Below, piece by piece: positions 34,982 to 62,232 of a stretch of 64,000 bases of DNA. Source of the DNA: Krasilnikoviella flava (lineage in GTDB: Bacteria > Actinomycetota > Actinomycetes > Actinomycetales > Cellulomonadaceae); assembly GCF_900167525.1 (NCBI RefSeq), contig NZ_FUZQ01000001.1:744001-808000 (forward strand). Direction: 5' to 3'. A program made the position numbers and the translations under genes. The notes below the pieces were generated by a model. The model was not told the origin of the DNA. It saw only the letters and a program-made list of their open reading frames with translations, and ran no database searches. Numbering within the stretch: the first letter of the stretch is position 1; each line of letters opens with the position of its first letter.

Positions 34982-37162
34982 TCAGAGCACGAGCTCGGGC
35001 TGCAGCTTGGTCACCGTCCACACGCGCTGGCGGCGGGCGGCGAGCGTCGTCAGCCCCAGCGCGACGACGAGCACGCCGAGCAGCACGACGACGTCGCGCG
35101 TGACGGTCGCGAGGTTGCCGCCGTACAGCAGCTGGCGCAGGCCCTCGACGGCGTACGTCATGGGCATGAACTGGTGCATCGCCTTGAGCGGCTGCGGGAT
35201 GGTCTGCCACGGGAACGTGCCGCCCGCGGTGACGAGCTGCACCAGCATGAGCACCAGCCCCAGGAACTGCCCGGCCGCGCCGAGCCACACGTTGAGCGCC
35301 TGCAGCACCGCGACGAACGTGCCCGAGACGAGCACCAGGAACAGCGCCGTGAGCAGCCCGTAGGACGGCTGGATGTCGAGCGCGAACTTCGTCACCGCGA
35401 ACATCGCCGCCACCTGCACGACGCCGATCGCGGCCGGGGTGGCCCAGCCGCCCAGCGCGGTGGCGAGCGCCGACCGGCCCGCCGCGAGCGCCCGCGTCGA
35501 CAGCGGCCGCACCAGCAGGAACAACACGTACGCGCCGATCCACGTGGCGAGCGACAGGAAGAACGGGGCGAGGCCGGCGCCGTACGTGCCCGCCGACGAC
35601 AGGGAGTCGTTGCGCACCTCCAGCGGGTTGCCGATGGTCGACGCCGTGTCCTCACGCGTCTGGTCGTCGAGGTCGGGGATCTGGCCCAGCCCCTCGGCCA
35701 GCCCGTCGCGCAGGTCCTGGGTGCCGCTCTTCAGCTCCCCGGACCCGTCCGCGAGCTTCGTGGTGCCGGCGGCGAGCTCGGCGGCCCCGTCGGACACCTG
35801 GCCGGTGCCGTCGGCCAGCCGGTGCACGCCGTCGACGAGCGCGGGCGTGGCATCGGCGAGCTGCCCGGTGCCGTCGGCCAGCCGGTCCGCGCCGTCCGCC
35901 GCGGACGCGATGCCGGCGGTGAGCTGCGGCGTCGCGCCGGCCAGCGTGGACGCGCCGTCGGCCACCTGGCGGGACCCGTCGGCGAGCTGGTCGAGCTTCG
36001 TCGACGCACCCTCGACGGTCGTCACGGCCTGCTGCACGTCGGTGCGCTGGGCGTCGAGGGCACCGTCGACGTCGGCGCGCGTCGTGTCGAGCCGGTCGAG
36101 CGCCTGGGCCCGCAGGTCTTCGCACTGCGCCGCGAGGTCGGTGGCGTCGTCCGGCACCTGCGCGCAGAGGTCGGAGAGCTGTTGGTCGAGGTCCGACCGG
36201 CCCTGGTCGAGGGCGTCCGCTGCGTCGGAGCGCGCGCCGTCGAGCGTCGGCAGCACCTGCCCCGCCGCGTCCGCGGCCTCCCGGCCGTACTGCGCCACCT
36301 GCGCGTTGCCGTCGGCCACCTGGGCCGCGCCGTCGGCGAGCTGCTTCGTCTGGGCGGGCAGGTCCGCCGTCTTCGACCGCAGCTCCCCGAGCCCGGACGC
36401 GAGCTGCCCCGCACCGTCGTCGAGCTGACCGACCGCCGACGCGAGCGTGCCGACCTTGCCGTCCAGGGTCGCGGCGCCGTCAGCCGCCTGCGCCGCGCCG
36501 TCGGCGAGCGTGTGCGCACCCTCGTCCGCGTCGGCGAGACCGTCGTCCAGGCTCGTCGCCCCCTTCAACAGCTGGTTCGCGCCGTCCACCGCGTCCGCCA
36601 GGTTCGTGTGGATCGACGCGAACCCGCGCAGGAACGTGTCGGCCGCCTCCGTGCCGACCTCCTCCGCGATGGAGTCGCGCACCTTCCCGACGATCGTGTC
36701 GGAGATCGTGCCCGCGAGGTAGTTGTTCGCGTCGTTCGTGATCAGCGTCAGGCTGGCCTGCTGCGGCTCGAACTCGCCCGCCGACGCGAGGTCGGCGGAG
36801 AACGTCGGGCCGATGATCAGCGCGGCGTCGTAGCGGCCGGAGCGCACGCCCGCCTCCGCGTCCGCCTGGGACGTCTCGACCCAGCCGAACCCGCCGTCGT
36901 CGAGCAGCTGGTCGGCGACGTCGCGACCGAAGTCGCGCTCGGTCTCCTCCCCCGTCTCCGCGTCCGTGGTCGTCGTGCCTTCGTCCTGCACGACGACGGC
37001 CGCCGGCACCTGCTCGAGCTGCCCGTACGGGTCGTGGTTGGCGAACAGGTACAGCCCCGCGTACAGCGTGGGGATCAGCGCCATCGCGACGATGGCCAGC
37101 TTCGGGAGGCGCCCGGCGGCGAGCCGGCGCAGCTCGGACAGGGCGAGCCGGACCGCGGTCAT
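34982..37162 (-). CDS. YhgE/Pip family membrane protein
   Basis: 726 residues. One N-terminal helix (about 19-42, AIVAMALIPTLYAGLYLF), a large extracytoplasmic part, then five or six C-terminal helices from about 550 on of ABC-2 permease type. The middle holds many 7-residue repeats of the LADGxxQLADG type (about 215-530), the mark of YhgE/Pip proteins, which include phage-infection proteins and envelope export components. Starts inside the stop of the ABC-like gene (ATGA). The pair probably forms one membrane complex. Confidence 0.92.
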   Translation of the reverse strand: MTAVRLALSELRRLAAGRLPKLAIVAMALIPTLYAGLYLFANHDPYGQLEQVPAAVVVQDEGTTTTDAETGEETERDFGRDVADQLLDDGGFGWVETSQADAEAGVRSGRYDAALIIGPTFSADLASAGEFEPQQASLTLITNDANNYLAGTISDTIVGKVRDSIAEEVGTEAADTFLRGFASIHTNLADAVDGANQLLKGATSLDDGLADADEGAHTLADGAAQAADGAATLDGKVGTLASAVGQLDDGAGQLASGLGELRSKTADLPAQTKQLADGAAQVADGNAQVAQYGREAADAAGQVLPTLDGARSDAADALDQGRSDLDQQLSDLCAQVPDDATDLAAQCEDLRAQALDRLDTTRADVDGALDAQRTDVQQAVTTVEGASTKLDQLADGSRQVADGASTLAGATPQLTAGIASAADGADRLADGTGQLADATPALVDGVHRLADGTGQVSDGAAELAAGTTKLADGSGELKSGTQDLRDGLAEGLGQIPDLDDQTREDTASTIGNPLEVRNDSLSSAGTYGAGLAPFFLSLATWIGAYVLFLLVRPLSTRALAAGRSALATALGGWATPAAIGVVQVAAMFAVTKFALDIQPSYGLLTALFLVLVSGTFVAVLQALNVWLGAAGQFLGLVLMLVQLVTAGGTFPWQTIPQPLKAMHQFMPMTYAVEGLRQLLYGGNLATVTRDVVVLLGVLVVALGLTTLAARRQRVWTVTKLQPELVL

Positions 37163-44976: not shown

Positions 44977-45044
44977 GTGTATGGCATACACGAGCGTACG
45001 GCATACACGTCGTGTTGGCTATACACACCGTGTCTCGGATACAC
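44977..45044. promoter_or_regulatory. phased operator array (ATACAC half-sites) between exporter and epimerase
   Basis: A palindrome GTGTATG-G-CATACAC at 44977-44991, then further ATACAC half-sites at 45003, 45021 and 45039. Spacing from 44986 on is 17, 18 and 18 bp. The array lies upstream of the epimerase -10 box and over the expected exporter promoter. Confidence 0.75.
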
Positions 45045-45080
45045 GCCCGCGCTGCACGCGCGCCACGGCGCAGCCCCGGA

Positions 45081-45086
45081 TACGGT
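45081..45086 (+). promoter_or_regulatory. -10 box for leaderless epimerase gene
   Basis: TACGGT, then 6 bases, then GTG at 45093. Confidence 0.6.
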
Positions 45087-45092
45087 CGGACC

Positions 45093-46154
45093 GTGCGCGT
45101 CGTCGTCGTGGGAGCCAGCGGGAACGTCGGGACGGCCGTGCTGCGAGCACTGGCCCGCGAGCCCGCGGTGACCTCGATCGTCGGGGTCGCCCGGAGGGTG
45201 CCGCGCGCCGACGGCAGCAGCACCGTGGCATTCCCCCACTCCGCCGCGGAGTGGGTCCGCGTCGACCTCACCGACACCGCGGACGCCGTGGTGCGCGGTC
45301 TCGACGAGGCCTTCCTCGGCGCCGACGCCGTCGTCCACCTCGCCTGGGCGGCGCCCTCGGCCCGCGACTCCGGGCGGGCACGCCGCCTCAACCTCGACGG
45401 CTCGCGCGCCGTCGCCGACGCCGTCGTGCGCAACGGCGTGCGCCACCTGGTGCTCGGCTCCACCTCGGGCGTGTACTCCCCCGGCCCTTTGGACGGCGGG
45501 CTCGTGCGGGAGGACTGGCCGCGCCGCGGCGTGCGCACCTCGTCCTACTCGGTACAGAAGGCCGCCGTCGAGCGGATGCTCGACGAGGTGGCCGAGACCC
45601 ACCCGCGGCTCGTCGTGACGCGGGTGCGCCCCGCGCTCATGCTGCAGCGGGAGGCGGGCGCCGAGCTCGGACGCTACTTCCTCGGGCCGCTCGGCACCCG
45701 CGCGCTGCGGCTCGCCGCCAGACGCGCCCCGGAGGGCGCGCTGCTGCCCGCCGTGCCCGCGCTCGACGGGCTCCGCCTGCAGGTGATGCACACCGACGAC
45801 GCCGCCGACGCCTACCGCGCCGTCGTCGTCGGCCGCCACCCCGGGGCGTTCAACCTCGCCCCCGAGGGCTGGCTGACCTCGGCCGACCTCGCCGACGTGC
45901 TCTCCGGGGGCCGCGCCGTCGCCGCCTCCCCCGGCCTCGCGCGGACCGGCCTGTCGGTCGCCTCCCGGCTGCGGCTCGCCCCGATCGACGTGGGCTGGTT
46001 CGACATGGCGCGCGCCGACGTCGTCCTCGACGCCTCGCGCGCCCGCGAGCTGCTGCACTGGGCGCCCACCCACGACCCGCGCGACGTGCTGCGCGAGACC
46101 GTGGAGGGCGTCATCGCCGGCACCGGCGCCGGCTCACCGCCCCTGCTGGGCTGA
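45093..46154 (+). CDS. NAD-dependent epimerase/dehydratase family protein
   Basis: 353 residues from GTG 45093. Extended SDR: nucleotide loop VVVGASGNVGTAV (5-17), AVVHLAW near 85, STSGVYSP near 130 and the catalytic YSVQK (YxxxK) near 155. Predicted to act on an NDP-sugar or a related carbonyl compound; substrate unknown. Leaderless by the TACGGT box. Divergent from the exporter across the operator array. Its last 21 bases overlap the convergent marR-like gene. Confidence 0.87.
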   Translation: MRVVVVGASGNVGTAVLRALAREPAVTSIVGVARRVPRADGSSTVAFPHSAAEWVRVDLTDTADAVVRGLDEAFLGADAVVHLAWAAPSARDSGRARRLNLDGSRAVADAVVRNGVRHLVLGSTSGVYSPGPLDGGLVREDWPRRGVRTSSYSVQKAAVERMLDEVAETHPRLVVTRVRPALMLQREAGAELGRYFLGPLGTRALRLAARRAPEGALLPAVPALDGLRLQVMHTDDAADAYRAVVVGRHPGAFNLAPEGWLTSADLADVLSGGRAVAASPGLARTGLSVASRLRLAPIDVGWFDMARADVVLDASRARELLHWAPTHDPRDVLRETVEGVIAGTGAGSPPLLG

Positions 46155-46694
46155 CTCCACCGCGCCCGACGCCCCCGACGCGGCCAGCGGTCCGCAGCCG
46201 CTGACGCGCTCACCGCACGCGAGCGCCGGGTCGATCGCCCGGACCACGACGTCGGCCGCGACGCCGAGCGCCTCGAGCTGGCGGTCGTCGAGCGCGTCCA
46301 CCACCAGCCGCCGCACCTCCCGGACGTGCCCCGGGGCGGTCGCGACGAGCTTGTCCCAGCCCGCGCCGGTGAGCCGGGCCTCCATGCGCCGCCGGCCGCT
46401 CGAGCACGCGCTGCGCTCGACCAGCCCCGCGCGCTCGAGCCGCCCGACGGCGTGCGACAGGCGCGACAGGGACCCGCGGGACAGCGCGGCCAGGTCGGAC
46501 ATGCCGAGGGTGCGGTCGGGGGCCTCGCCGAGGGCGACCAGCACGTGGTACTCGAACAGGTTGAGCCCGGCGTCGGTGCGCAGCTGCGCGTCGAGCGTGG
46601 CGGGCAGGGTCATGAGGAGCGTGGCCACCGACGACCAGCTCCGCTGCTGGTCCTCGCTGAGCCGCGCCGGGGCGTCGGTCGATGCGGACGGCAT
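46134..46694 (-). CDS. MarR family transcriptional regulator
   Basis: 186 residues. Winged helix about 45-115: FEYHVLVALGEAPDRTLGMSDLAALSRGSLSRLSHAVGRLERAGLVERSA, then GRRRMEARLTGAGW (wing). Divergent from an azoreductase with two inverted-repeat operators between them, the usual MarR arrangement. TAGGAT lies 5 bases before ATG 46694, so the mRNA may be leaderless. Tail-to-tail overlap with the epimerase. Confidence 0.93.
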   Translation of the reverse strand: MPSASTDAPARLSEDQQRSWSSVATLLMTLPATLDAQLRTDAGLNLFEYHVLVALGEAPDRTLGMSDLAALSRGSLSRLSHAVGRLERAGLVERSACSSGRRRMEARLTGAGWDKLVATAPGHVREVRRLVVDALDDRQLEALGVAADVVVRAIDPALACGERVSGCGPLAASGASGAVESAQQGR

Positions 46695-46699
46695 ACCTC

Positions 46700-46705
46700 A
46701 TCCTA
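46700..46705 (-). promoter_or_regulatory. -10 box for marR-like gene
   Basis: TAGGAT on the minus strand, 5 bases before ATG 46694. Confidence 0.5.
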
Positions 46706-46712
46706 AAGCGAC

Positions 46713-46724
46713 TTGAACGATCAA
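46713..46724. promoter_or_regulatory. MarR-type operator, copy 1
   Basis: TTGAACGATCAA, an imperfect inverted repeat that contains the azoR -35 box. Confidence 0.65.
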
Positions 46725-46742
46725 CACGGCTGTGGGTACGGT
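46713..46742 (+). promoter_or_regulatory. azoR promoter
   Basis: -35 TTGAAC, 18-base spacer, -10 TACGGT; flanked and overlapped by both operators. Confidence 0.65.
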
Positions 46743-46745
46743 CCG

Positions 46746-46761
46746 TCTTGAACATTCAAGA
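46746..46761. promoter_or_regulatory. MarR-type operator, copy 2
   Basis: TCTTGAACATTCAAGA, a perfect palindrome with a 2-base centre. It covers the expected azoR transcription start. Confidence 0.8.
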
Positions 46762-46809
46762 TCGCGCGTCCGCACCAGGACCTCGACTCCCCGCACCGGA
46801 GGACCACCC

Positions 46810-47442
46810 ATGACGCTTCTTCGTCTCGACGCCAGCATCCAGGGCGACCTGTCCGCGAGCTCCGCCCTCGCGGACACCGTCGTCGCCGAGGCCACGGCCG
46901 CCCGCCCGGGCACGACCGTCGTCATCCGGCACCTGGGCCGGGACCCGCTGCCCGCCGACGCCTGGGCGCAGGCGACCATGGCCGGGTTCGTCGCGGAGGA
47001 GGAGCGCACCCCCGAGCAGCGTGCCGCCCTCGACCTCGCCGCCGTCCTGACCGACGAGGTCCGGGCCGCGGACGCCCTCGTCCTCGCCCTGCCGCTGTAC
47101 AACTACGGCGTCTCGCAGCACGCCAAGGCCTGGATCGACCTCGTCACCACCGGGGCGGGCACCGGAGTCCCCGTGCTGGAGGGCAAGCCCACCGTGCTCG
47201 TCACCACGCGCGGCGGCTCGTACGGCGAGGGCAGCCCGCGCGCCGGCTGGGACCACAACACCGACTACCTGCGGCGCATCCTCGAGGACCTGTGGCGGGC
47301 CGACCTCACCGTCGTCGAGCGCGAGTTCACCCTGGTGGGCGTGAACCCCGCCCTGGACCAGTTCGCCGACGCCGCCGCCGTCATGGCCAAGCAGGCCGAG
47401 GAGGACGCCGTCGCCGCCGGCAGGGCCCTCGCGGCCCGCTGA
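46810..47442 (+). CDS. azoR: FMN-dependent NADH:quinone/azo reductase
   Basis: 210 residues; GGAGG 7 bases before ATG 46810. Flavodoxin-like fold: LLRLDASIQGDLSASSALAD (FMN phosphate loop), LALPLYNYGVSQHAKAWIDLV near 94 and TTRGGSYGEGSP near 138 match AzoR. Reduces quinones and azo compounds. Under the MarR-type regulator (inference). Its stop is 4 bases before an R2 array. Confidence 0.92.
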   Translation: MTLLRLDASIQGDLSASSALADTVVAEATAARPGTTVVIRHLGRDPLPADAWAQATMAGFVAEEERTPEQRAALDLAAVLTDEVRAADALVLALPLYNYGVSQHAKAWIDLVTTGAGTGVPVLEGKPTVLVTTRGGSYGEGSPRAGWDHNTDYLRRILEDLWRADLTVVEREFTLVGVNPALDQFADAAAVMAKQAEEDAVAAGRALAAR

Positions 47443-47446
47443 CCTC

Positions 47447-47580
47447 GCCGAGGTAGTTCAGACGGACGGCGAGGTAGTCCGCACACGGACTACCTCGCCG
47501 TCGTACGGACTACCTCGCCGCTGCGCGAACTACCTCGCGGGGCTCTGAACTACCTCGGCGAGTTGCGAACTACCTCGCGC
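47447..47580. repeat. R2 array: 2 inverted and 5 direct units in 20-bp phase
   Basis: GAGGTAGT units at 47450 and 47471, then (G/A)ACTACCTCG units whose ACTACCTCG cores start at 47489, 47509, 47529, 47549 and 47569, exactly 20 bp apart. Fills the gap between the convergent azoR and osmC-like stop codons, ending at the osmC-like stop. Confidence 0.95.
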
Positions 47581-48024
47581 TCAGCCGTTGAAGGTGACGT
47601 CGAGCGTGATCTCGCCGACGCCCGCGAGCGCCTTCGAGACCGGGCAGCCGGCCTTCGCGGCCTCGGCGGCGGTGCGGTAGGCGTCCGCGTCGATGCCGGA
47701 CGCCGAGCCCACCACGGTGAGGTGGATCTTCGAGATCTCGAGGCCACCGCCGGCCGCCGGGGTCAGCGTGACGTCGGCGGTCACGTCCGTCGCGCCGGGC
47801 GTGCCGCCCGCGTTCGCGACCTCGAGCGAGAACGCCATCGCGTAGCACGACGAGTGCGCGGCCGCGATGAGCTCCTCCGGGCTGGTGACGCCCTCCGCGG
47901 CGTCCGCCGTGCGGCGGGGGAACGAGACGTCGAACGCCCCGACGCCGGAGCTGGCGAGCTCGACCTTGCCGGCGCCGCTCTGGATGTCGCCGTTCCAGGC
48001 GGTGCGTGCGGTACGGGTGGACAT
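47581..48024 (-). CDS. OsmC/Ohr family peroxiredoxin
   Basis: 147 residues. Redox pair C60 (AAHSSCYAM) and C127 (AGCPVSKAL), with E52 nearby, as in OsmC proteins that reduce organic hydroperoxides. AGGAG lies 8 bases before ATG 48024. Its 3' end abuts the R2 array. Confidence 0.93.
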   Translation of the reverse strand: MSTRTARTAWNGDIQSGAGKVELASSGVGAFDVSFPRRTADAAEGVTSPEELIAAAHSSCYAMAFSLEVANAGGTPGATDVTADVTLTPAAGGGLEISKIHLTVVGSASGIDADAYRTAAEAAKAGCPVSKALAGVGEITLDVTFNG

Positions 48025-48139
48025 AGGGAGTTCTCCTTCGTGCTCCGGGACAGGTCACGACGACCGTAACCCGCACCCGCACCGGGCGACAGCGACCTTC
48101 CAGGTGGTGGCGGTCACGTCCGGGCGGCGGGCGGCGGTG

Positions 48140-48838
48140 TCACCCGTACTCCTCGCGCTCCACCGGGTTCGTCCCCGTGAGCACGGCGACGAGGTCGGCC
48201 ACCGACCGGCCGGCCATGGCGTCCTCGAACGAGTACTGGGGGTCGTCCTCGGCCACGCGCAACGGTTCCGTGCGCACCGTGCCCTCGAGCTCGCCGACGC
48301 CGATCGCGTCGTCGTACGGCAGCAGGGCGTCCATGCCGAGCCAGGCCCAGTGCGCGGCGCTGGGCGCGGTCGGGTCCTCGACGGCGGGACGCCAGACCAG
48401 CGCCACCACATACGTGTGCCCCACCTCGATCCGCGGCGTGTCCTCGATCGCGACGCGCGTGCGGACCCCGGCCCGGACCGTCGTCCACGGCGCCCCCGTC
48501 ACGAAGCTCCCGGAGGGAGCCCGGTGCCGTGGCTCGGGGGCCGACCAGACCAGGTCGTCGACCTGCAGGGTCATGTCACGCCGGAACGAGCGCTCGCCCG
48601 GCGGGTTCCCGTCGTCGTCCTCCCGTGCCATCAGCACCTCGTCCTCGTCCACGGCCGTCACGACGACCACATGGTCGGCGTACGTCACCCAGTCCGCGGC
48701 CGTCGTGCTCGGAAAGCTCTCCTCCGCCATGGCGATCACCACGCCACCGGGCGACGCGACGTCGGTCGGCGACGCGCACGCGGCGAGCGTCGCCGCCAGC
48801 AGGACGGCAGCGACGGGCCCGCCCACCGCCCGGCTCAC
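48140..48838 (-). CDS. predicted lipoprotein, third gene of the sigma operon
   Basis: 232 residues from a GTG that overlaps the upstream stop (GTGA). Lipobox TLAACAS near residue 20. The mature part (DHVVVVTAVDEDEVL .. DDLVWSAPEPRHR .. TYVVALVWRP) is of unknown family, probably beta-rich. Its place in an operon with an ECF sigma factor and an anti-sigma-like protein suggests an envelope-stress or signalling output (inference). Confidence 0.75.
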   Translation of the reverse strand: MSRAVGGPVAAVLLAATLAACASPTDVASPGGVVIAMAEESFPSTTAADWVTYADHVVVVTAVDEDEVLMAREDDDGNPPGERSFRRDMTLQVDDLVWSAPEPRHRAPSGSFVTGAPWTTVRAGVRTRVAIEDTPRIEVGHTYVVALVWRPAVEDPTAPSAAHWAWLGMDALLPYDDAIGVGELEGTVRTEPLRVAEDDPQYSFEDAMAGRSVADLVAVLTGTNPVEREEYG

Positions 48839-50250
48839 CGGGGCGCCGAGAAGTCCATGCCGTCGTCGGCGACGGCGACGACGGACCAGGCGTTGCCGTC
48901 GGCGTCGGACAGCTCGTAGGCGGGAACGAGGACCACCGAGCCGTCGTCCTGCGTCTGCTGCGCCAGGCCGAGCCGGGCGTCGGTGATCTCGACGTCGGAG
49001 ACCGGCCAGTCGACCGGGTCGCCGGCCGCGGGCGGGGCGGGCGCGGGGGACGGCTCGTCCAGCCCGCCCTCGGTCTCGGCCTCCGCCCACATCCCCTCCT
49101 CGTCGGCGTACGCGACCGGCCAGGCGGAGCCGGAGAACCGCGGGTCGCCGAGCCGCTCGACGGCTTCGGCCGGGCTGATCACCGGGTACTCCCCGAGATC
49201 GACGGTCGCGGCGAGGAAGCCGTCCAGCCAGGCGACGCCCTTCTCCCCCACCGTCGCGCTCCACTGCGCACCGGTGCGGGTGCCGTCCACCACCTGGTAG
49301 GCGGTGACCCAGCGGCCTGGCTCGCCCTCGGCCTTCTCACCCACCTCGATCTCGAAGCCGTCGGGGTCGACGCCGAGGCTCCGCATGGCGTCGGCGAGCG
49401 CGTCGCGCGCCTCCCGGTCGCCGACCGTGGAGGTGGCCGGCTGCTCGCAGTCGGGCTCGGCCCCCTCCTCGGCGTCGCGGGCGACGGCGCCCTCGCACCG
49501 CCACGGGTCGGCGCCGGGGTCGCTGTAGCCGAACGTCGCGCTGCCGTCGGCGGACAGCCAGAGCGTCGGGCCGTCGCCGTCCCGCGGACCCACGGACCAG
49601 CCGTAGTCCCAGCGCGGCTCGCCGTCGACGTCGAGCGCCTTCGCGACCCGGGCTGCGCCCTCGCGGGTGGCGGCGTCGGTCGCGTCGAAGGCATAAGCCG
49701 CGGCCGTGCCGCCTTCCGTGGACAGTCCGTCCGCGTGGAACAGCGCGCGCCCCGACGAGTACCAGCTCGGCAGGGTCGCGTCGCCCGCCGCCGTCGACGC
49801 GGCGGCGTCGTCGCCCCCTGCGGCGCGGTCCTCCGCCGCCCCCGCGGCTGCGGAGCCCTCCGCCCCGGCGGCCGCGCGGTCGCCCTGCGGGCCACCGTTC
49901 AGCACGATCGGCGCGGCGGCACCCCCGGCGGCGTCGGCGCTCCCGGCTCCTTGCGCCGACGCCCCGCCCAGCAGGTACCCGCCCCCGCCGACGACGGCGA
50001 GCGCGGCGACCCCCGCGACCGCCAGCCACGGTGTCCGACGGCGTCGGCGAGCGGCCAGCTCGTCGCCGTCCGGAGCGGTCTCGACCTGCGCGACGAGCGG
50101 GTCGCCGTCCTCCGCCAGGCGCGCGTCGACCTTCGCCCGCAGCACGCCCGGCGACGACCCGACCCCGGCCGCCGGGTCCGCCGCACGCAGGCGCGCCAGC
50201 GGCTCGTCGTCCGGCGCCGCCCCGTCGCCTGCTCGCTCGTCGTCGTTCAT
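48835..50250 (-). CDS. anti-sigma-factor-like membrane protein
   Basis: 471 residues from ATG 50250 with GGGAGG upstream. Cytoplasmic 1-73 (DEPLARLRAADPA...), one helix about 74-95, then a large extracytoplasmic domain with Ala/Gly linker and a PSWYSSGRALF start. Single-pass topology and its place directly after an ECF sigma gene fit an anti-sigma regulator; no ZAS zinc motif is visible. The partner sigma factor is encoded 62 bases upstream. Confidence 0.75.
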   Translation of the reverse strand: MNDDERAGDGAAPDDEPLARLRAADPAAGVGSSPGVLRAKVDARLAEDGDPLVAQVETAPDGDELAARRRRRTPWLAVAGVAALAVVGGGGYLLGGASAQGAGSADAAGGAAAPIVLNGGPQGDRAAAGAEGSAAAGAAEDRAAGGDDAAASTAAGDATLPSWYSSGRALFHADGLSTEGGTAAAYAFDATDAATREGAARVAKALDVDGEPRWDYGWSVGPRDGDGPTLWLSADGSATFGYSDPGADPWRCEGAVARDAEEGAEPDCEQPATSTVGDREARDALADAMRSLGVDPDGFEIEVGEKAEGEPGRWVTAYQVVDGTRTGAQWSATVGEKGVAWLDGFLAATVDLGEYPVISPAEAVERLGDPRFSGSAWPVAYADEEGMWAEAETEGGLDEPSPAPAPPAAGDPVDWPVSDVEITDARLGLAQQTQDDGSVVLVPAYELSDADGNAWSVVAVADDGMDFSAPR

Positions 50251-50312
50251 CGCGCCTCCCCGGCCCTGCGGCCCCGCCGTCGCGGCGGGCGCCCTCGTCC
50301 TCGTCTGTGTGC

Positions 50313-50843
50313 TCAGCCCGCGTCGACTTGCGCGTCGTGGGCGTCCCACGCCGAGCGCAGCCGTGCCCTCGCGCGGGACAGCGCGGCGTCGGCTCCCCCG
50401 CGCGAGACGCCGAGCACCTGCGCCAGCTCGGCGCCACCCAGCCCCTCCCATGCGACGAGCAGGAGGATGCGCCGGTCCCGCGGCGTGAGCCGGGCGAGGA
50501 CGGCGCGCACCTGGTCGTCGTCGACGGCGAGCCCGGCCGGGTCGACGTCGTCGGGCACCTCGGGCACCACGGCGACGGGCGTCGGCCGGGCCTTGCGCCG
50601 GTGGTTGGCCAGGACGAAGCCCGCCGTCCGGTAGAGCCACGGCAGCTCGGCCCCACGCGGCACGTCCGCGCGCCGACGCCACGCGGTGGCCAGCACGTCG
50701 GCGGCGAGGTCCTCCGCGTCCGCGCCCCCCGCCGGGAGCCGGCGCACGAGGTAGCGGTGCACCGCCACGGCGTGCGCGGCGAAGAGCTCGTCGAACCACG
50801 TCGCGTCGTCGACGTCGTCGGGGACGGTCACGTCCGGGTCCAC
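50313..50843 (-). CDS. ECF RNA polymerase sigma factor
   Basis: 176 residues from GTG 50843; GGAGG 4 bases upstream decides the start. Sigma-70 region 2 about 16-85 (WFDELFAAHAVAVHRYLVRRL..DAEDLAADVLATAWRR), region 4 about 108-165 (LARLTPRDRRILLLVAWEGLGGAELAQVLGVSRGGADAALSRARARL). No anti-sigma binding C-terminal extension. Directs a regulon that probably includes its own operon. Confidence 0.93.
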   Translation of the reverse strand: MDPDVTVPDDVDDATWFDELFAAHAVAVHRYLVRRLPAGGADAEDLAADVLATAWRRRADVPRGAELPWLYRTAGFVLANHRRKARPTPVAVVPEVPDDVDPAGLAVDDDQVRAVLARLTPRDRRILLLVAWEGLGGAELAQVLGVSRGGADAALSRARARLRSAWDAHDAQVDAG

Positions 50844-50980
50844 CGGGCCTCCTGCGGTCCTGGGCGCGCGGGCACGCGCGCCACCCTTCGACGCGACTGT
50901 GTCGCCGTACCCCGGGGACTTGCACCCGCGCGCGCCGAGATCACCCGCAGATTCATCCCTCCGCCGTCGACGGGCGGACC

Positions 50981-50986
50981 TACGGT
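50981..50986 (+). promoter_or_regulatory. -10 box for leaderless DUF4012 gene
   Basis: TACGGT, then 6 bases, then ATG at 50993. Divergent from the sigma-factor gene. Confidence 0.6.
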
Positions 50987-50992
50987 GCGGGG

Positions 50993-52891
50993 ATGACCGT
51001 CGACACGGGCACGGCGCCCCCCGGGACGGACCCCACCACGCCGACGGTCCGCCGGCGGCGCGCCTCGCGGTGGGTGCTGCTCGGCGTGCTCGGGGTGGTG
51101 CTGGTCGCCGCCGTCTGCGGCGTGCTGCTCGTCCGCGACGCGCTCGCCGCGCGCACCGCGCTGACCCGGGCCGCTGCGCAGGTCCCCGCCGTGTCGGAGG
51201 AGCTGCGCGCCGGCGTCCGGCCCGAGGCCGACGGGTCGGCACCGGCGCGCCTGGCCGCGTCTCCCGCCCTGGCCGAGCTGCGCCTCCAGACCACGATCGC
51301 CCGCGAGTCGACCGACGGGCCGCTGTGGTGGCTCGCCGCGCGCACCCCTGTCATCGGTCCCTCGGCGGGCGCTGCGGCCGACGTCGCCGTCGTGCTCGAC
51401 GACGTGACCGACGACGTGCTGCCCGCCCTCGCCGACCTCGCCGACGCCGTGGCCGCCACGAGCCGCGCGCCGGACGGCGGCCTCGACCTCGCCCCCCTGC
51501 GCGCGGCCGCACCGGGCATGGCCGCGGCGCAGCAGTCGATCACCGCCTCGCGGGCCCGGCTCGACGCCGTCGACCCGGACGCCCTCGTGCCCCAGCTGGC
51601 ACAGCCCGTGGCGACGCTGCGCGACCGGGTCGACGAGCTCGCCGGCGCCGTCGCGACCGGCGACCGCGCGGCCGCCCTCGGGCCCGCGATGCTCGGCGCG
51701 GACGGGCCGCGCACCTACCTGATGCTGAGCATGAGCACGGCGGAGCTGCGCCAGGGCGGCGGCATCCCGGGCGCCATCATCCTGCTGCGCGTCGACGGCG
51801 GCCGCGTCGAGGTGGTGCGCCAGGTCGCGGCGTCCGAGGTCGGGCCGTTCCGCGCCCCCGTGCTCCCCCTGTCCGCCGACGACGAGGCCGCGTACACGGG
51901 CCGGCTCGGCATGTTCGTGCAGGACGTCACCGCCACCCCGGACTTCCCGACGTCGGCGGCGCTGGCCGCCGCGATGTGGGCGCGCGCCCAGGGCGAGGAG
52001 GTCGACGGCGTCCTGGCCACCGACCCCGTCGCGCTCGGCGGCCTCCTCGCCGCGACCGGCCCGGTGCAGGTGCCCGTGTCGCCGCAGGTCGCGCGCGCCC
52101 TCGGTCGCGACACGGTGGAGCTGACGGCCGAGAACGCCGTCGACGTGCTGCTGCGGCGCGTCTACGACGTCCTCGACCCCGACACCGCCGACGTGTTCTT
52201 CGCCGAGGCCGCCGCCGCCGTCCTCGCCCGGGCCACGGCCGACGACGTCTCGCCGGCCGTGCTGCTCGCCGGGTTGCAGCACGGGGCCGGGGAGCATCGG
52301 GTGCGCGTCTGGTCGGCCGACCCGGCGGAGCAGGCGCGGCTGACCGGCACGCTGATCGCCGGGTCGTTCGCCGCGCCGCGTGCCGCGGACGCGCTCGGCG
52401 TGTTCCTCACCGACCACGTGGCGGGAAAGATGTCGGCCTACCTGGACTCGTCGCTGCGCGTCGTCGGCACGGAGTGCACCGACGCCGGCCGGGTGGCCAC
52501 GCTGGAGCTGACCCTGGCCTCCACGGCGCCCGCCGACGCGGCGACCGCGCTCCCGTCGTACGTCGCGGGGGTGCCCGGGGGCGCGAGCCCGCCCGGCACG
52601 CTCCGGCTCGGCGTCACCGTGTCCGGTCCGCGCGACGGCGCGACACCGCGCGTCGAGCGGGACGGGACGGCGGTGGGCGGCGAGGCCCGCACCACGCACG
52701 GGCGCGCCACGCAGTCGGTCACGGTGGTGCTCCGCCCCGGCGAGGACACCACGCTGCGGCTCACCGTCCCGGCCGGCCCGGGCTCGGGGCCGGGGGCCGG
52801 CGGGACGCCGTCCGGCCGGCTCGAGGTCTGGTCGACGCCGACGACGACGGCCGGCGGGCTGCTCGACGTCGAGGCGCCCGTGTGCGGGTGA
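50993..52891 (+). CDS. DUF4012 family membrane-anchored protein
   Basis: 632 residues. One N-terminal helix (about 27-49), then an extracytoplasmic part with PRTYLMLSMSTAELRQGGGIPGAIILL near 235 (typical of DUF4012) and conserved KMSAYLDSSLRVVGTEC near 480. The family is common in actinobacteria and often lies near surface-polysaccharide or cell-wall genes; function unknown. Leaderless start by the TACGGT box. Followed by an LPxTG-like surface protein. Confidence 0.85.
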   Translation: MTVDTGTAPPGTDPTTPTVRRRRASRWVLLGVLGVVLVAAVCGVLLVRDALAARTALTRAAAQVPAVSEELRAGVRPEADGSAPARLAASPALAELRLQTTIARESTDGPLWWLAARTPVIGPSAGAAADVAVVLDDVTDDVLPALADLADAVAATSRAPDGGLDLAPLRAAAPGMAAAQQSITASRARLDAVDPDALVPQLAQPVATLRDRVDELAGAVATGDRAAALGPAMLGADGPRTYLMLSMSTAELRQGGGIPGAIILLRVDGGRVEVVRQVAASEVGPFRAPVLPLSADDEAAYTGRLGMFVQDVTATPDFPTSAALAAAMWARAQGEEVDGVLATDPVALGGLLAATGPVQVPVSPQVARALGRDTVELTAENAVDVLLRRVYDVLDPDTADVFFAEAAAAVLARATADDVSPAVLLAGLQHGAGEHRVRVWSADPAEQARLTGTLIAGSFAAPRAADALGVFLTDHVAGKMSAYLDSSLRVVGTECTDAGRVATLELTLASTAPADAATALPSYVAGVPGGASPPGTLRLGVTVSGPRDGATPRVERDGTAVGGEARTTHGRATQSVTVVLRPGEDTTLRLTVPAGPGSGPGAGGTPSGRLEVWSTPTTTAGGLLDVEAPVCG

Positions 52892-53002
52892 ATGCGCGCT
52901 CCGCCTGCGGTTTCACCCGGGTGAGACGGGGCCGCGGCGGCCTGCGCGCCGATAGCGTGAGCGCCCGAGGTCGCCCCGCGAGCACCGCCCCGAGGAGTCG
53001 AG

Positions 53003-53817
<815 letters not shown>

Positions 53818-53849
53818 GATCGAGCGCGATTGCGCAGGTCGGCGACGCG

Positions 53850-54275
53850 TCAGGTCTCCACCACGATGGTCACCGGGCCGTCGTTCACCAGCTCGACGGC
53901 CATGTCCGCCCCGAACCTCCCGGTCGCGACCTCGAGCCCGCGCCCGCGCAGGTCGGCCACGACCGCGTCCACCAACGGCTCCGCCACCGGGCCGGGCGCG
54001 GCCGCGTTCCAAGTGGGGCGGCGCCCCTTGCGCGCGTCGCCGTACAGCGTGAACTGGCTGACCACCAGCACCGGGGCGCCCTCGTCCGCCGCCGACCGCT
54101 CGTCGCGCAGGATGCGCAGCTCCGCGATCTTGCGCGCGACGGTCGCCACGTCGGCCGGGCCGTCGTCGTGCGTCACCCCGACGAGCGCGACCAGGCCGGG
54201 CCGGTCGATCGCACCGACCACCTCGCCGTCCACCGTGACGCTGGCGCGGGTGACCCGCTGCACGACCGCCCTCAC
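53850..54275 (-). CDS. dtd: D-aminoacyl-tRNA deacylase
   Basis: 141 residues from a GTG overlapping the asparaginase stop (GTGA). Removes D-amino acids (and Gly) mischarged on t[24 protein letters not shown] start, SQFTLYGD near 80, and the C-terminal [10 protein letters not shown] (Gly-cisPro motif region) are diagnostic. Length is standard. Confidence 0.95.
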
Positions 54276-55318
54276 GCGGCGGCCACCGGGAACGCCGGGC
54301 GCACCGCGCCCACCGGCACCCCGCCGCCCAGCACGGAGGTGACGCCGACGGCGTCGAGGGCCGCGAGGTCCGCCCCGGCGACCTCCGCCGCCCCCGCCGC
54401 GCGCAGGGCCGCCGCGAGGATGGCCGGCCGCGGCCGGTCGCCGCCGTCGAGGATCTTGAACGCCACCGCCGACCCGTCGGGCAGGCCCGCCGCGCACACG
54501 CCGTCAGCCCCGATCTTCGCGATCGCGCCCGGCACCGCGGTCATGACCAGCGTGTCCTCCCGCCCACGGCCGGCGACCATCTCGGGGTGGGCGGCCATCG
54601 CGCGCGCCACGCGTGCGGCGTCGGCGTCCGCACCCGGCGTCGAGCGCGAACCCGCGCCGGCGAGCCGGCCGAACGACCGTGCCAGGCCGAGCACCGACGT
54701 GGAGAACAGCGGCGCGCCGCAACCGTCCACGGTCATGTGCGGGTCGTCGTCGCCCGTCAGCGCGACGACGGCGGCCCGCACCGCCCCCTGCAGCGGGTGC
54801 GCGGGGTCGAGGTAGGTGGCCGTGTCCCACCCGGCCGCGACGCAGGTGGCGAGCATCGCGGCGTGCTTGCCGGAGCAGTTCTGCGCGATCCGTGCGGGCC
54901 CGTGCCCGGCCTCCTGCCAGGTGCGCGCCTCGGCCCGGCCGAGCGGCAGGTCGGGCGTGTTGCGCAGCGCGGACTCGTCGAGCCCGGCACCGGCGAGGAT
55001 CTCACGCACCCCGGCCAGGTGCTCGGGAGCACCGCTGTGGCTGGCGGCGGCGAGCGCGAGCAACGGGGCCGGCAGGTCGAGGCCCGAGCGCAGCATCGCG
55101 AGGGCCTGCAGCGGCTTCACCGAGGAGCGCGGCCAGATCGTCGTCGCCGGGTCGCCCAGGGCGAGCTGCACGTCGCCGTCGGGACCGAGCACCACCAGGT
55201 GCCCCAGGTGCACCGACTCGACGAGATCCCCGCGCACCACCTCGGCCAACGGCACCGCGCCCTGCGCCACGGGCGCGACGGGCACGCGTGCGCCCTGCGC
55301 CGTCACCTCGCCCGCCAC
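54272..55318 (-). CDS. asparaginase (type II/thermolabile family)
   Basis: 348 residues from a [21 protein letters not shown] near residue 60, [15 protein letters not shown] near 90, [19 protein letters not shown] near 145 and [23 protein letters not shown] near 200 mark the asparaginase_II (R. etli-type) family, which differs from the E. coli enzymes. Hydrolyses asparagine to aspartate. Operon with dtd (overlap) and DUF2516 (1-base gap). Confidence 0.92.
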
Positions 55319-55319
55319 G

Positions 55320-55664
55320 TCACCAGCCGCCCGTCGGGCCCTGCGGGCGGCGCCCTCCGCCCGTACCGTACGGCTGGATCCGGGGCCGCACGTCCACCCA
55401 GTAGATGATCGCTGGCGTCACGGCGATGACGTTGAAGAACGATCCCGCCGTCATGAGCATCGGCGGCAGCCCGAACAACCCGATCAGCGCGGCGATGCCG
55501 AGGATCAGCAGCCAGATGTTCTTCTTCAGCTTCCCCTCGGACACGTAGGCGCGGGCGGGGCGGCGCACGGCGTCGAGGAACGCGACGAGCTGCACCACGA
55601 ACACCACGACCGCGAGCGCGACGAGCAGGTAGTACTGGAGGGACCCGAAGGCGGCGGAGATCAC
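55320..55664 (-). CDS. DUF2516 family membrane protein
   Basis: 114 residues with about three membrane helices. Conserved DAVRRPARAYVSEGKLKKNIWLLILG and VRPRIQPYGTGGG at the end. The family is actinobacterial and of unknown function. First gene of an operon with asparaginase and dtd. Confidence 0.88.
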   Translation of the reverse strand: MISAAFGSLQYYLLVALAVVVFVVQLVAFLDAVRRPARAYVSEGKLKKNIWLLILGIAALIGLFGLPPMLMTAGSFFNVIAVTPAIIYWVDVRPRIQPYGTGGGRRPQGPTGGW

Positions 55665-55674
55665 TCGCCCGAGC

Positions 55675-56100
55675 CTACGGGAGCACGCGCATGCGGCGGG
55701 AGCGCGCGGCGCCGGCGACGTGCTCGTCCCAGGCGGCGACCACCGTGTCCTCGTGCGCGACGGCGAGCGCGCTCGCCACGTGCAGGGCGTCCGCGCCGCG
55801 CAGCGGCACGGGGCAGGACGCCAGCAGCTCGGCCGCGCGCTCGGAGACGTCGGGCGACACCTCGAGGGTGTGCAGCCCGGCGCTCAGCTCCTCCCACAGC
55901 GCCGTACCGCGGCGTCGCGCGAGCGGGTCGAGCACCCCGGCCCGCTCGCCGGCCGCGAGCGCCGCCCGCACCTCGGCGTCGGAGATGCGCGACGTGACCG
56001 CGACGTCGGCGCGGTTCCACAACGCGCTCGCGAGCCCGGACCCGGGCTCGTGCACGCACAGCTTCACCAGCGCGCTGGCGTCGAAGTAGACGAGGGCCAT
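55675..56100 (-). CDS. PIN-domain toxin (VapC-like)
   Basis: 141 residues. PIN nuclease acid residues: D7 (VYFDASALVK), E near 43 (SDAEVRAAL) and D near 104 (LRGADALHVASAL). Such toxins cleave RNA; the cognate antitoxin is encoded just upstream. The two genes are 45 bp apart with an R1 half-repeat between them, unlike the usual overlap in vapBC operons. Confidence 0.9.
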   Translation of the reverse strand: MALVYFDASALVKLCVHEPGSGLASALWNRADVAVTSRISDAEVRAALAAGERAGVLDPLARRRGTALWEELSAGLHTLEVSPDVSERAAELLASCPVPLRGADALHVASALAVAHEDTVVAAWDEHVAGAARSRRMRVLP

Positions 56101-56120
56101 CCTGCTCCGTTCTCGTTCCT

Positions 56121-56145
56121 GGCGGTCGACTCTGTCGAGACCACG
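56121..56145. repeat. partial R1 repeat inside the toxin-antitoxin operon
   Basis: GGCGGTCGACTCTGTCGAGACC, a degenerate R1 half directly against the antitoxin stop codon. Confidence 0.65.
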
Positions 56146-56442
56146 TCAGCGCCGGATGCGCCGCACGAGGTCGGACATGCGCGACGCGGGCCGCGACGCC
56201 GGGCGGGCGGCGGGACGCGCGACCGCGGCCGCGTCGTCGGGCAGCGCGTGCACGGGTCGCTCCGTCTCGGCGGGCGTGAGCAGGCCGTCGCGCACCAGCC
56301 CGGCGACGAGGTCCGCCGTCTGCACCCCCGACAGGCGGGCGACGGGTACCCCGCGGTCGGTGATGACGACCTCCTCGCCCGCCCGTGCCTTCTCGATCCA
56401 CGACTTCAGCTCGGCGCGCAGCGCGCTGACGGAGACCTCCAT
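56146..56442 (-). CDS. Phd/YefM-like antitoxin
   Basis: 98 residues, start MEVSVSALRAELKSWIEKARAGEEVVITDRGVPVARLSG, the classic Phd/YefM DNA-binding fold. The C-terminal half (Pro/Ala/Arg-rich, ending VRRIRR) should bind the toxin. Paired with the downstream PIN toxin. An operator would be expected around 56443-56480, but none was obvious. Confidence 0.9.
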   Translation of the reverse strand: MEVSVSALRAELKSWIEKARAGEEVVITDRGVPVARLSGVQTADLVAGLVRDGLLTPAETERPVHALPDDAAAVARPAARPASRPASRMSDLVRRIRR

Positions 56443-56489
56443 GACCGACGACCGTACCGTCCCGGCCCTGCGCCGAACAGACACCGCCC

Positions 56490-56597
56490 GCCGAGGTGGT
56501 CCGCGAATCGCCGAGGTAGTTCGTGACACCGCGTCACGAACTACCTCGGCAGGATTCGGACTACCTCGGCGATTCCCGAACTACCTCGGCACGGGCG
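56490..56597. repeat. R2 array: 2 inverted and 3 direct units in 20-bp phase
   Basis: GAGGTGGT/GAGGTAGT at 56493 and 56513, then ACTACCTCG cores at 56540, 56560 and 56580. The second and third units form a perfect 18-bp hairpin (56510-56527 with 56533-56550, loop ACCGC). The last unit abuts the stop of the exporter permease. Confidence 0.95.
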
Positions 56598-57431
56598 TCA
56601 GATGGCGCGGCGGTAGGCGCGGAACGCCAGCGACGCCAGCCCGCCCATGACGGCGACCGCGGCGGCGAGCAGGCCCAGGTGCAGCCACACGGCGCCCGGG
56701 TCGGCGAAGCCCTGCAGGGCGTCGCGCGCCACGACCACCGCCCAGTCGAACGGGTTGAACCGCGCTGCCGTGGCGATCCAGCCGGGCGCGAGTGCCGGGT
56801 CCATCACGGCCGACGACAGGAACATCAGCGGGATCGTCAGCAGCTGCGAGACGCCGATGAGCGCCTCCTGCTGCCGCGTGAGCAGCGCGACGGCGCCGGA
56901 GAGCGCGGCGAACAGGCAGCTCAGCAGCGCCACGGCGACCAGCATGACGAGCACGCCGGGGACGCCGCCGGGGAACCGCGCGCCGTCGAGCCACGCCACG
57001 CCCACGACCACCAGGGCCTGGGCGCACGCGAGCAGCGCGTACCAGGCCATCGAGGCGGACAGCAGCGCGCCGCGGCTCGTCGGCGAGGCGAGGAAGCGGT
57101 CCATGACGCCGCGGTCCATGTCCTGCACGAACGTGGTGCCGGCCCAGGCGGCGCCGCCCATCGCCGTCATCATGACGACGCCCGGGGTGAGGTACTCGAG
57201 GTAGCTGACCTCGGCGCCACCCGCGAACCCCGGGATCTCGATGACGGACCGGAAGAGCTGCCCGAACAGCAGGAGCCAGATCATCGGCTGCAGCAGGTTC
57301 ATCACCATGAACACGGGGACGCGCATGCCCTGGCGGGCCTGGCGCCCCGTCAGGAGGGCCGCCTGCGTCAGCGCGCCCGTACGGCGCGGCGCGCGGAGGG
57401 TGGTCGTCGGGTCGGTCGTCAGGGTGCTCAT
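56598..57431 (-). CDS. ABC-2 type exporter permease (second DrrB-like)
   Basis: 277 residues, six membrane helices. VSYLEYLTPGVVMMTAMGGAAWAGTTFVQDMDRGVMDRFLASPTSRGALL and RFNPFDWAVVVARDALQG are DrrB/ABC-2 hallmarks. Starts inside the ATPase stop (ATGA). Confidence 0.92.
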   Translation of the reverse strand: MSTLTTDPTTTLRAPRRTGALTQAALLTGRQARQGMRVPVFMVMNLLQPMIWLLLFGQLFRSVIEIPGFAGGAEVSYLEYLTPGVVMMTAMGGAAWAGTTFVQDMDRGVMDRFLASPTSRGALLSASMAWYALLACAQALVVVGVAWLDGARFPGGVPGVLVMLVAVALLSCLFAALSGAVALLTRQQEALIGVSQLLTIPLMFLSSAVMDPALAPGWIATAARFNPFDWAVVVARDALQGFADPGAVWLHLGLLAAAVAVMGGLASLAFRAYRRAI

Positions 57432-58486
57432 GCCGCCACCTCCGTGGCCTCGGTGCCGGCGGTCCCGGCGCTCGTGCCCGCGGCCCGGTGGGCCGCCTCC
57501 AGGCTGCGGCCCGTGTGCCGCAGGTAGACGTCGTCGAGCGTGGGCCGGGACAGCCCCGCCGCCCGCACGCCGATCCCCGCGGCGTCGAGCGCCGCGAGCA
57601 GCGCCGGGAGCGCGGTGGCCCCGGCGTCGGCGCGCGCCCGCAGCACGCTTCCGTCGGCCGCGACGTCGACGACGCCGGGCACGCGACCCGCCACCGGGAC
57701 GGCGGCCGCCGCGGTGGCGCCGTCGTCGAGATCGACGGTGACGCCGTCGCCGCGCAGCTCGTCCTTCAGCGCGTCGGGCGTGCCCGCGGTGACGACCCGG
57801 CCGGCGTCCACGATGGCGACCTGGTCGGCGAGGCGGTCGGCCTCCTCCAGGTAGTGCGTCGTGAGCAGGATCGTCATGCCGTCGCCGGCCGCCATGCGCT
57901 CGATCTCGGCCCACACCGCGGCGCGCGCCTCGGGGTCGAGGCCCGTGGTGGGCTCGTCGAGGAACAGCACCTGCGGCCGGTGCACGAGTCCGACGGCGAC
58001 GTCGAGCTTGCGCGCCATCCCGCCGGACCAGGTCTTCACCAGGCGGTCGGCGGCGTGCGCGACGCCGAAGCGCTCGAGCAGCTCGTCGGCGCGCCCCCGG
58101 GCCTCGCCGGCCCGCAGGCCCTGGAGCCGGCCGGCCAGCACGAGGTTCTCGCGCCCCGTGCCCATGGGGTCGGTCACGGGGCGCTGCGCCACGTAGCCGA
58201 TCGCCCGGCGGACGGCCGCCGGTTCCCGCACGACGTCGTGGCCCGCGACGCGCGCGGTCCCGCCGTCCGGCGCGGAGAGCGTCGCGAGGATCTTCACTGT
58301 GGTGGACTTCCCGGCGCCGTTGGGGCCGAGCAGGCCGAGCACGCTGCCTTGCGCGGCGGCCAGGTCGAGGCCGTCGAGCGCCCGCACGGAGCGGGCGGCG
58401 CGGCCGGGACCGCGGCCGGAGCCGTAGGTCTTGGTCAGGCCGGCGACGTCGATCGCGACGTCGGACGTGGTCGGGTGTGCGGACAT
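57428..58486 (-). CDS. ABC exporter ATP-binding protein (second DrrA-like)
   Basis: 352 residues from ATG 58486 with GGAGGAG upstream; an in-frame ATG at 58561 was rejected. Walker A GPNGAGKST near 52, signature WSGGMARKLDVAVGL near 153, Walker B VLFLDEPTTGLDP, switch TTHYLEEADRLAD. C-terminal DrrA extension ending in Ala/Thr. All catalytic residues are intact. Substrate unknown. Confidence 0.95.
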   Translation of the reverse strand: MSAHPTTSDVAIDVAGLTKTYGSGRGPGRAARSVRALDGLDLAAAQGSVLGLLGPNGAGKSTTVKILATLSAPDGGTARVAGHDVVREPAAVRRAIGYVAQRPVTDPMGTGRENLVLAGRLQGLRAGEARGRADELLERFGVAHAADRLVKTWSGGMARKLDVAVGLVHRPQVLFLDEPTTGLDPEARAAVWAEIERMAAGDGMTILLTTHYLEEADRLADQVAIVDAGRVVTAGTPDALKDELRGDGVTVDLDDGATAAAAVPVAGRVPGVVDVAADGSVLRARADAGATALPALLAALDAAGIGVRAAGLSRPTLDDVYLRHTGRSLEAAHRAAGTSAGTAGTEATEVAA

Positions 58487-58575
58487 GTCTCCTCCAGGGG
58501 AAATCGGAGGGTCCGGCGCACGCCCTAGGGTGGGAGTGCGTCTCGAGGTGCGGTCGTGCACCGGACCCGAGCCAC

Positions 58576-58607
58576 CGGTCCCGGGCGATGGCAGTCGCCC
58601 GGGACCG
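58576..58607. terminator. 13-bp hairpin terminator after padR operon
   Basis: CGGTCCCGGGCGA and TCGCCCGGGACCG with a 6-base loop, 9 bases past the stop of the minus-strand membrane-protein gene and ahead of the ABC ATPase. Confidence 0.75.
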
Positions 58608-58616
58608 TTCTCGTGC

Positions 58617-59965: not shown

Positions 59966-59972
59966 GACAGGT

Positions 59973-60001
59973 ACTGTATCTCATCAACTACTCGACGACA
60001 A
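59973..60001 (-). promoter_or_regulatory. padR promoter
   Basis: On the minus strand: -35 TTGTCG (60001-59996), 17-base spacer, -10 TACAGT (59978-59973), then 7 bases to GTG 59965. Confidence 0.65.
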
Positions 60002-60037
60002 CGGGTTCTGGACGGGCACCGACAACCTGAGCCCGCC

Positions 60038-60072
60038 GAGGTAGTTCGGATCCCGCCGAGGTAGTTCGCCGC
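60038..60072. repeat. R2 half-array, 2 inverted units, upstream of MFS gene
   Basis: GAGGTAGTTCG at 60038 and 60058, 20 bp apart, facing inward to the MFS gene. The matching direct units lie after that gene at 62200. Confidence 0.9.
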
Positions 60073-62199: not shown

Positions 62200-62232
62200 G
62201 AACTACCTCGGCACGGTTCGGACTACCTCGGT
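62200..62232. repeat. R2 half-array, 2 direct units, between convergent genes
   Basis: GAACTACCTCGG at 62200 and GGACTACCTCGG at 62220, 20 bp apart, filling the gap between the MFS stop (62195) and the FUSC-like stop (62234). Confidence 0.92.

Follow-up and report, generated by a model that had tools for sequence, protein, structure and literature searches.

In this study, we found that short repeat units, phased at 20 bp, are scattered in small arrays through the genomes of soil bacteria (Isoptericola) and that arrays of the same kind bracket a gene encoding a protein with an AbiEi-type winged helix and a putative Vsr-like nuclease domain. It suggests that the repeats and the bracketing gene form an unreported protein–repeat partnership. 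A partial literature search found no description of the repeat or of its pairing with a gene, which agreed with the claim of an earlier note on this DNA that the family is undescribed; the text matches listed for the letters of the core look like chance sequence matches. In our view, the repeats are probably dispersed copies, lacking the gene, of a repeat-plus-enzyme system, comparable to REP/RAYT but with an unrelated enzyme. If this is true, repeat–enzyme partnerships arose more than once, and actinobacterial proteins now labelled AbiEi or DUF559 would gain a function. The system would also offer a natural series of joint changes in DNA-binding specificity, in site spacing and at many genomic sites, with the prediction, testable in environmental bacteria, that each protein binds its own core at its own period.

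The window, which is the whole 64-kb stretch of DNA that was analysed, belongs to the genome called G000 here and contains arrays at the four loci that had been noted earlier, all of which were recovered. In the notation used below, '>' is the direct unit ACTACCTCG, '<' is the inverted unit CGAGGTAGT and '(' is a unit with one mismatch. The array '<<>>>>>' (47449..47577, 7 units, no single strand) lies between convergent genes encoding a flavodoxin-fold protein (+) and an OsmC-like protein (-). The array '(<>>>' (56492..56588, no single strand, 5 units, the first with one mismatch) is separated by 9 bp from the stop codon of a gene for an ABC-2 membrane protein (-), and its inner unit pair forms a perfect palindrome. 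Two inverted units, '<<' (60037..60065, minus strand), are flanked by divergent genes, and two direct units, '>>' (62202..62230, plus strand), lie between the convergent genes of an MFS transporter (+) and a FUSC-like protein (-), the stops of which are 6 and 3 bp away, respectively. A single exact core inside a gene (36715..36723, minus strand), with no phased partner, is probably due to chance. When one mismatch was allowed, the core matched the window 47 times vs 8.74 ± 3.08 times in shuffles. The strict 20-bp phase claimed for these loci holds in general, except that the first gap of the array 47449..47577 is 21. Many arrays abut stop codons as described, but the array 60037..60065 between divergent genes adjoins no stop.

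The earlier note regarded few further copies, or random spacing, as evidence against such a family. The family withstood this check, as 135 exact ACTACCTCG-N11-ACTACCTCG pairs were counted in the G000 genome (4.85 Mb) vs none for the reversed-pattern control. The same-strand distances between exact units were 20 bp (135), 19 bp (3) and 21 bp (2), plus multiples, in 605,934 bases consisting of the window and the stretches around 20-bp pairs, a count that is biased towards 20 bp because these stretches were picked via such pairs. The polarity was uniform in this sample, where the inverted unit precedes the direct unit at 26 of 26 exact junctions; units with one mismatch occasionally break the order (e.g., L158). 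The order of inverted and then direct units, reported earlier for two loci, was correct, but mixed arrays occur at many more loci. Of 49 arrays in G000, 48 are intergenic and one is inside a called gene. By the calls of a retrained codon-usage gene caller, the intergenic arrays have convergent (21), tandem (22) or divergent (5) flanking genes, while these stretches have 51, 173 and 88 gaps longer than 40 bp of the respective kinds. Numerous arrays begin no more than 15 bp from a stop codon; at 14 gene ends elsewhere in the genome, the neighbouring gene has its TAG stop within a unit (offset -8).

The 20-bp phase is conserved among related species, and the core is a species dialect. A core-free count of repeated 9-mers at distances of 12–33 bp covered G000 and two other Isoptericola genomes, G001 and G009, and the top distance was 20 bp in each, with 746 pairs in G000 (next 315), 633 in G001 (next 155; core GCGCTACCTCG) and, more weakly, 172 in G009 (next 128; core GCGCTGACTCG). 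An outward walk from exact pairs in five genomes, in which imperfect units were included and ties were counted as 20, gave a step of 20 bp for 390 of 402 units, 21 bp for 7 and 19 bp for 5. The phase is kept in species with differing cores, which supports the proposal that the phasing is under constraint. The literal core pair is patchy, being found in 6 of 58 related genomes with G000 counted in, and its named sources, among the matches listed, are mainly Isoptericola and Cellulosimicrobium with a few others. A skeleton of three units, CTNNCTCG three times at 20 bp, was found in 12 of 16 genus genomes, where the reversed control gave one match, in G000. It was also found in 12 of 134 other genomes of the family, 10 of which had 1–6 matches, and in 9 of 396 genomes across the order; six of these nine belong to the genus, and the remaining three include two with matches that are simple repeats of 10 bp. 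Two genomes of other genera of the family, G124 and G028, had 119 and 15 matches, with 22 and 0 in the reversed control.

In stretches of 400 kb each, G001 and G009 had 17 and 9 arrays, none within called genes, and the order of units at 8 of 8 '<>' junctions was the same as in G000; one G001 cluster reads '><<>>' when the pattern is loosened. Related species have array positions in common, several of them beside near-identical gene ends, and the arrays at these positions differ among species in unit number, spacers and flanking bases. Some species that lack ACTACCTCG have, at orthologous intergenic sites, arrays that are laid out alike and built on another core, and others have no array there. 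Among the G000 array loci that were syntenic with the G001 stretch, two of five had a G001 array; for the G009 stretch, one of three had an array by script and a second array was visible in addition. Units containing CTACCTCG at a 20-bp phase (GGGACTACCTCG, with other spacers) were also observed on three Chloroflexi/Anaerolineales MAG contigs (L076, L097 and L115), with no gene of the partner family found within a few kb of them. Likewise, no family member was found within 3–8 kb at ten loci of other organisms and eight Cellulosimicrobium loci that have the core at 20 bp.

The partner gene was recognised at the locus L123, where a gene with an MTES_1575/DUF559 match is bracketed by two arrays. 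A search of 18 genus genomes with PF18741 gave 63 matches. For 31 of these, mostly short-frame, the flanks were inspected, and 7 had two-sided 20-bp arrays while 24 had none at 20 bp; the arrangement of the seven was always '<<< gene >>>' with that species' own core. PF18741 alone was rejected as the criterion for the subfamily, as it mixes long-frame proteins and paralogs, and separation was obtained only with a profile of flanked copies (A1), built from six flanked proteins. The full-length subfamily matched A1 at E 1.4e-131 or better, and the next match was at 3.5e-97. The subfamily occurs in 13 of 18 genus genomes, full length in 11, among which the G005 copy is counted although it has no winged helix, and degenerate in G000 and G011. 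Arrays with the genome's own core, '<' on one side and '>' on the other, enclose every one of the 13 copies, including five full-length copies found by A1 that had not contributed to the profile (G002, G009, G012, G016 and G017). All 13 are also syntenic, with a transporter ATPase gene on one side and a substrate-binding-protein gene on the other, and therefore represent one inherited locus rather than 13 events.

The arrays co-occur with the subfamily. Among 16 genomes (G006 and G015 were outside this sample), the 11 with the subfamily had 23–171 three-unit matches vs 0–4 in the five without it, a comparison that ignores kinship. The counts with the subfamily were 74 (G000), 171 (G001), 27 (G002), 96 (G005), 158 (G007), 100 (G009), 23 (G011), 139 (G012), 37 (G014), 49 (G016) and 105 (G017). 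The five genomes in which the subfamily is absent and paralogs are present had 4 (G010) or none (G003, G004, G008 and G013). The G000 copy is frameshifted in the middle of the gene, and G005, in which the winged helix is lost, is a close relative of G000. The fraction of degenerate units was 0.24 in G000 and 0.37 in QY 916 (G005-like), no more decay than in G001 (0.30) and G009 (0.55), where the gene looks intact; it was 0.37 in I. halotolerans. Since the arrays persist where the gene is broken (G000 and G005-like), their persistence evidently does not require an intact gene. Either the loss was recent, or another protein acts on the sites, or the sites are retained for another reason.

The partner protein has about 340 amino acids and comprises a winged helix of the AbiEi type, a middle domain that is also AbiEi-like and a putative nuclease domain of the Vsr-like PD-(D/E)XK (MTES_1575/DUF559) kind. 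The PADLOC AbiEi models matched both proteins tried (E 7.5e-14 and 8.2e-16). Seven of ten proteins matched PF13338 and seven of ten matched PF18741 (E 2.4e-7 to 7.8e-3), all below the cut-off, and DUF559 was above the cut-off only in L286 and the L123 fragment. The G017 copy matched no Pfam family, and the single NCBIfam match (E 0.083) was far below the cut-off. Two weak beta-lactamase matches (E 1) in a PDB sequence search were put down to chance. The motifs SPGES, VDFGW and EFDGxxKY (in the form VDFGW...EFDGxxKY) are conserved in most copies of the nuclease domain. Among ten copies that have a winged helix, this segment diverges most, with a mean identity of 37%, compared with 39% for the linker, 55% for the N-tail, 61% for the nuclease domain and 70% for the middle domain. 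Its identity was 72% between copies of genomes that use the same core (n 5) vs 32% between those with different cores (n 40), relatedness not being removed from this comparison and the core labels being assigned by hand (G014 is mixed). The contrast was nearly equal in the linker (68% vs 36%), and G016 and G017 are an exception, having a core in common and a winged-helix identity of only 41%.

Paralogs of the gene are flanked by other cores at other periods. Of 297 genomes in the order, 60 had members of the family as defined by profile A1 (E 1e-30; at most seven candidates scored per genome). At 54 family loci (L294–L347), inverted phased pairs across the gene were sought at periods of 14–30 bp, and 31 were positive within 19–22 bp, a restriction made post hoc with the hits already seen: 16 at 20 bp, 11 at 19 bp and 4 at 21 or 22 bp. 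One locus, L330, was positive outside this range, at 17, and L294, on a truncated contig, was flanked at 20 bp in addition to the 31 automated positives. Among 967 control genes, many of them drawn from stretches that had been chosen for arrays, the positives were 0 at 19, 7 at 20, 5 at 21 and 1 at 22 bp, and one of the seven at 20 bp was a family gene itself. The 22 family loci without two-sided phased flanks include three with a one-sided palindrome (L305, L308 and L309). Complete '<<>>' palindromes with unrelated cores stand on both sides of the gene at L312, L313, L316 and L317, and the left and right palindromes are near-identical at the first three; no control gene (0/330) had such palindromes on both sides, and 20 had one on either side. 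A 20-bp period had been described, and it holds for the Isoptericola arrays, but relatives of the partner gene use 19 or 21–22 bp. The TCTATCTCG dialect, with a period of 21–22 bp, flanks paralogs in G010 and G004 and is found away from paralogs too; one such array was found in the G004 stretches (400 kb) and none in the G010 stretch C14:1-400000. Long C/G homopolymer runs in G004 (L368, L373 and L380), probably assembly artefacts, yield false phased matches. A solitary palindrome of another dialect, with TTCGGCA at 20 bp, occurs in G000 (contig C2, L124:11584) and resembles the palindromes, with TTCGGCA at 19 bp, on the flanks of G007 and G011 paralogs.

For the preferred repeat-plus-enzyme reading, we propose the following mechanism, in which the protein would bind the core of about 11 bp, one site per period, as AbiEi antitoxins do on tandem inverted repeats. 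If a DNA-binding module of the AbiEi kind occupied a single core in each ~20 bp, the phase, the dialects and the greater freedom of the spacers would all be accounted for, and the size and contacts of the protein would set the period. The nuclease domain suggests that copying or conversion may be started by a nick or break. Such a cut at or near the sites could let the palindromic element reach new places by copying or conversion, chiefly right after stop codons, presumably the least harmful place for insertion, and the arrays would then lengthen via tandem duplication. When the winged helix changes its specificity, the sites throughout the genome would follow, so that the dialects come to differ between species, in some cases at identical intergenic positions. 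We put forward only tentatively the full form of this proposal, that a Vsr-type nuclease with a fast-evolving winged helix spreads and constantly rewrites its own phased sites as a non-homologous counterpart of REP/RAYT, that a change in the winged helix causes many sites to change in place, and that each subfamily fixes its period (19, 20 or 21–22 bp).

By analogy, the system would in its working most resemble REP/REPIN with RAYT, described in parts of PMC3116915 and PMC3733652 as dispersed palindromes with an enzyme gene flanked by its own repeats. In both, short extragenic palindromic repeats form species-specific families that lie mainly at the 3' ends of genes, copies without a gene are dispersed, and the enzyme gene has its own repeats on both sides (13/13 here, at one syntenic locus and with a different enzyme). 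The placement is also alike, being intergenic here in 48/49 with few arrays (5) between divergent genes. On the other hand, the present repeats are phased arrays of ~11-bp sites, and the protein is a fusion of a winged helix and a putative PD-(D/E)XK domain. None of the 18 genus genomes had a match to the Y1/HUH tyrosine transposase (PF01797), compared with 5 of 14 control genomes; GTAG is present in the CGAGGTAG dialects and absent from the CGAGTCAG and CGAGATAG dialects. Membership in REP/REPIN-RAYT was rejected because the Y1 transposase is absent and the GTAG/CGTC tag at the palindrome foot is not general. For CGTC-tagged REPs, which are also extragenic palindromes, no dedicated transposase was found either; their named hosts are alpha-proteobacteria and relatives, but they are tagged, and phased arrays do not figure in the relevant part of that source (PMC3733652).

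The DNA uptake sequences of Neisseriaceae are likewise species dialects of a ~10-bp motif with inverted pairs near gene ends; to our knowledge, they form no phased arrays and have no adjacent nuclease gene, and both are present here. CRISPR arrays have repeats of ~23–47 bp, unique spacers of similar length and adjacent cas genes. A CRISPR array was rejected on the repeat layout, as the earlier note had done, since the units are 9–11 bp in both orientations and the arrays are small, many and scattered.

The AbiEi type IV antitoxins and their operators also share a winged helix, an AbiEi-like domain and tandem inverted sites with our system. AbiEi and Rv2827c are monomers binding tandem 23-bp inverted repeats, and antitoxins of this family do so at their own promoters, according to part of PMC7319586. 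It is conceivable, then, that an AbiEi-like repressor uses the gene-side arrays as operators and that the dispersed arrays regulate, insulate or roadblock transcription, with no mobility. The detected winged helix, the kept phase and the tracking of sites with species are consistent with it. However, we consider this regulon unlikely. The arrays are on both sides of the gene, 43 of 49 arrays are at convergent or tandem genes with 5 at divergent genes and 1 in a called gene, four paralogs have complete palindromes on both sides, and the nuclease domain would be superfluous for a regulator. Compared with the AbiEi antitoxins and their operators, our system has an additional putative nuclease domain, and its sites stand on either side of the gene and are also spread over the genome at the 3' ends of genes. 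AbiE systems have a DUF1814 AbiEii toxin gene next to the antitoxin gene; the gene neighbours of the subfamily are transporter genes in 13/13.

The nuclease domain may also point to a role in conflict, in which the arrays, as decoys or self tags, hold or license the nuclease, and DNA or transcripts without arrays or with misplaced arrays are attacked. Vsr-like domains are known in conflict systems, and MTES_1575 is a Vsr-type domain in giant HEPN proteins, in a part of PMC3710099 where repeats are not mentioned. The matches to the PADLOC AbiEi models agree with such a role, and a weak match to the RAP domain (E 0.011, one of ten proteins) keeps RNA possible as the substrate. We regard this role as improbable, however, as 5 of 18 genomes lack the subfamily, and in 2 others, in which the arrays persist, it is degenerate. 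No relative was encoded on 80 viral-contig stretches matched by two short peptide patterns. In a plasmid search, 4 of 72,556 records matched, none over 80% of the query.

The position of the arrays at gene 3' ends agrees with their being hairpins in the RNA, i.e., terminators or mRNA stabilisers kept for that role, with the association with the gene being secondary. Indeed, the '<>' arrays, two of the four loci in the window, fold far better than shuffles (z -10.5 and -9.6), and at the 3' end of the L144 gene (L188, L190 and L194) several species have '<' before and '>' after a terminator-like hairpin. But the single-orientation arrays of the window keep the phase and do not fold (z -1.9 and -0.1), and no terminator-like site with a T-tract was found at the four window arrays. 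Intrinsic terminators (GC hairpin with T-tract) were rejected, the sole candidate in 46000-63900 being away from the arrays. No Rfam match was found in positions 45000-64000 of the window. The match between spacers that face each other across the palindrome exceeded the baseline at the innermost level alone, in G000 (0.672 vs 0.516, 16 pairs) and in QY 916 (0.694 vs 0.493, 12 pairs), and was at baseline at the outer levels; four I. halotolerans pairs (0.562) and one G001 pair were too few. Moreover, hairpins do not require species-specific cores. An RNA role for the arrays is thus very improbable, and termination, suggested earlier, is unsupported as a primary function.

Passive tandem duplication, in which slippage multiplies the units and the phase is a memory of the first duplication, would fit the adjacent spacers, which are somewhat more alike than spacers of different arrays (0.587 vs 0.493, 7 of 66 identical), but it is largely refuted and extremely improbable, as the cores are fixed while the spacers diverge, other species have the same 20 bp with different cores, the polarity is 26/26 and the arrays pair with one gene family. 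The divergence of the spacers around a fixed core was observed with units selected by exact core, and mismatched units were included in the outward walk. For the preferred repeat-plus-enzyme system, tandem duplication accounts for part of the regularity of the arrays. From the facing spacers, the founding element looks like the inner palindrome of two plus two units, and the outer units look like later tandem additions. At the junction of the '<' and '>' arms, a similar decamer of the GGWCYRGWCC type was observed at four loci (L127, L133, L142 and L148).
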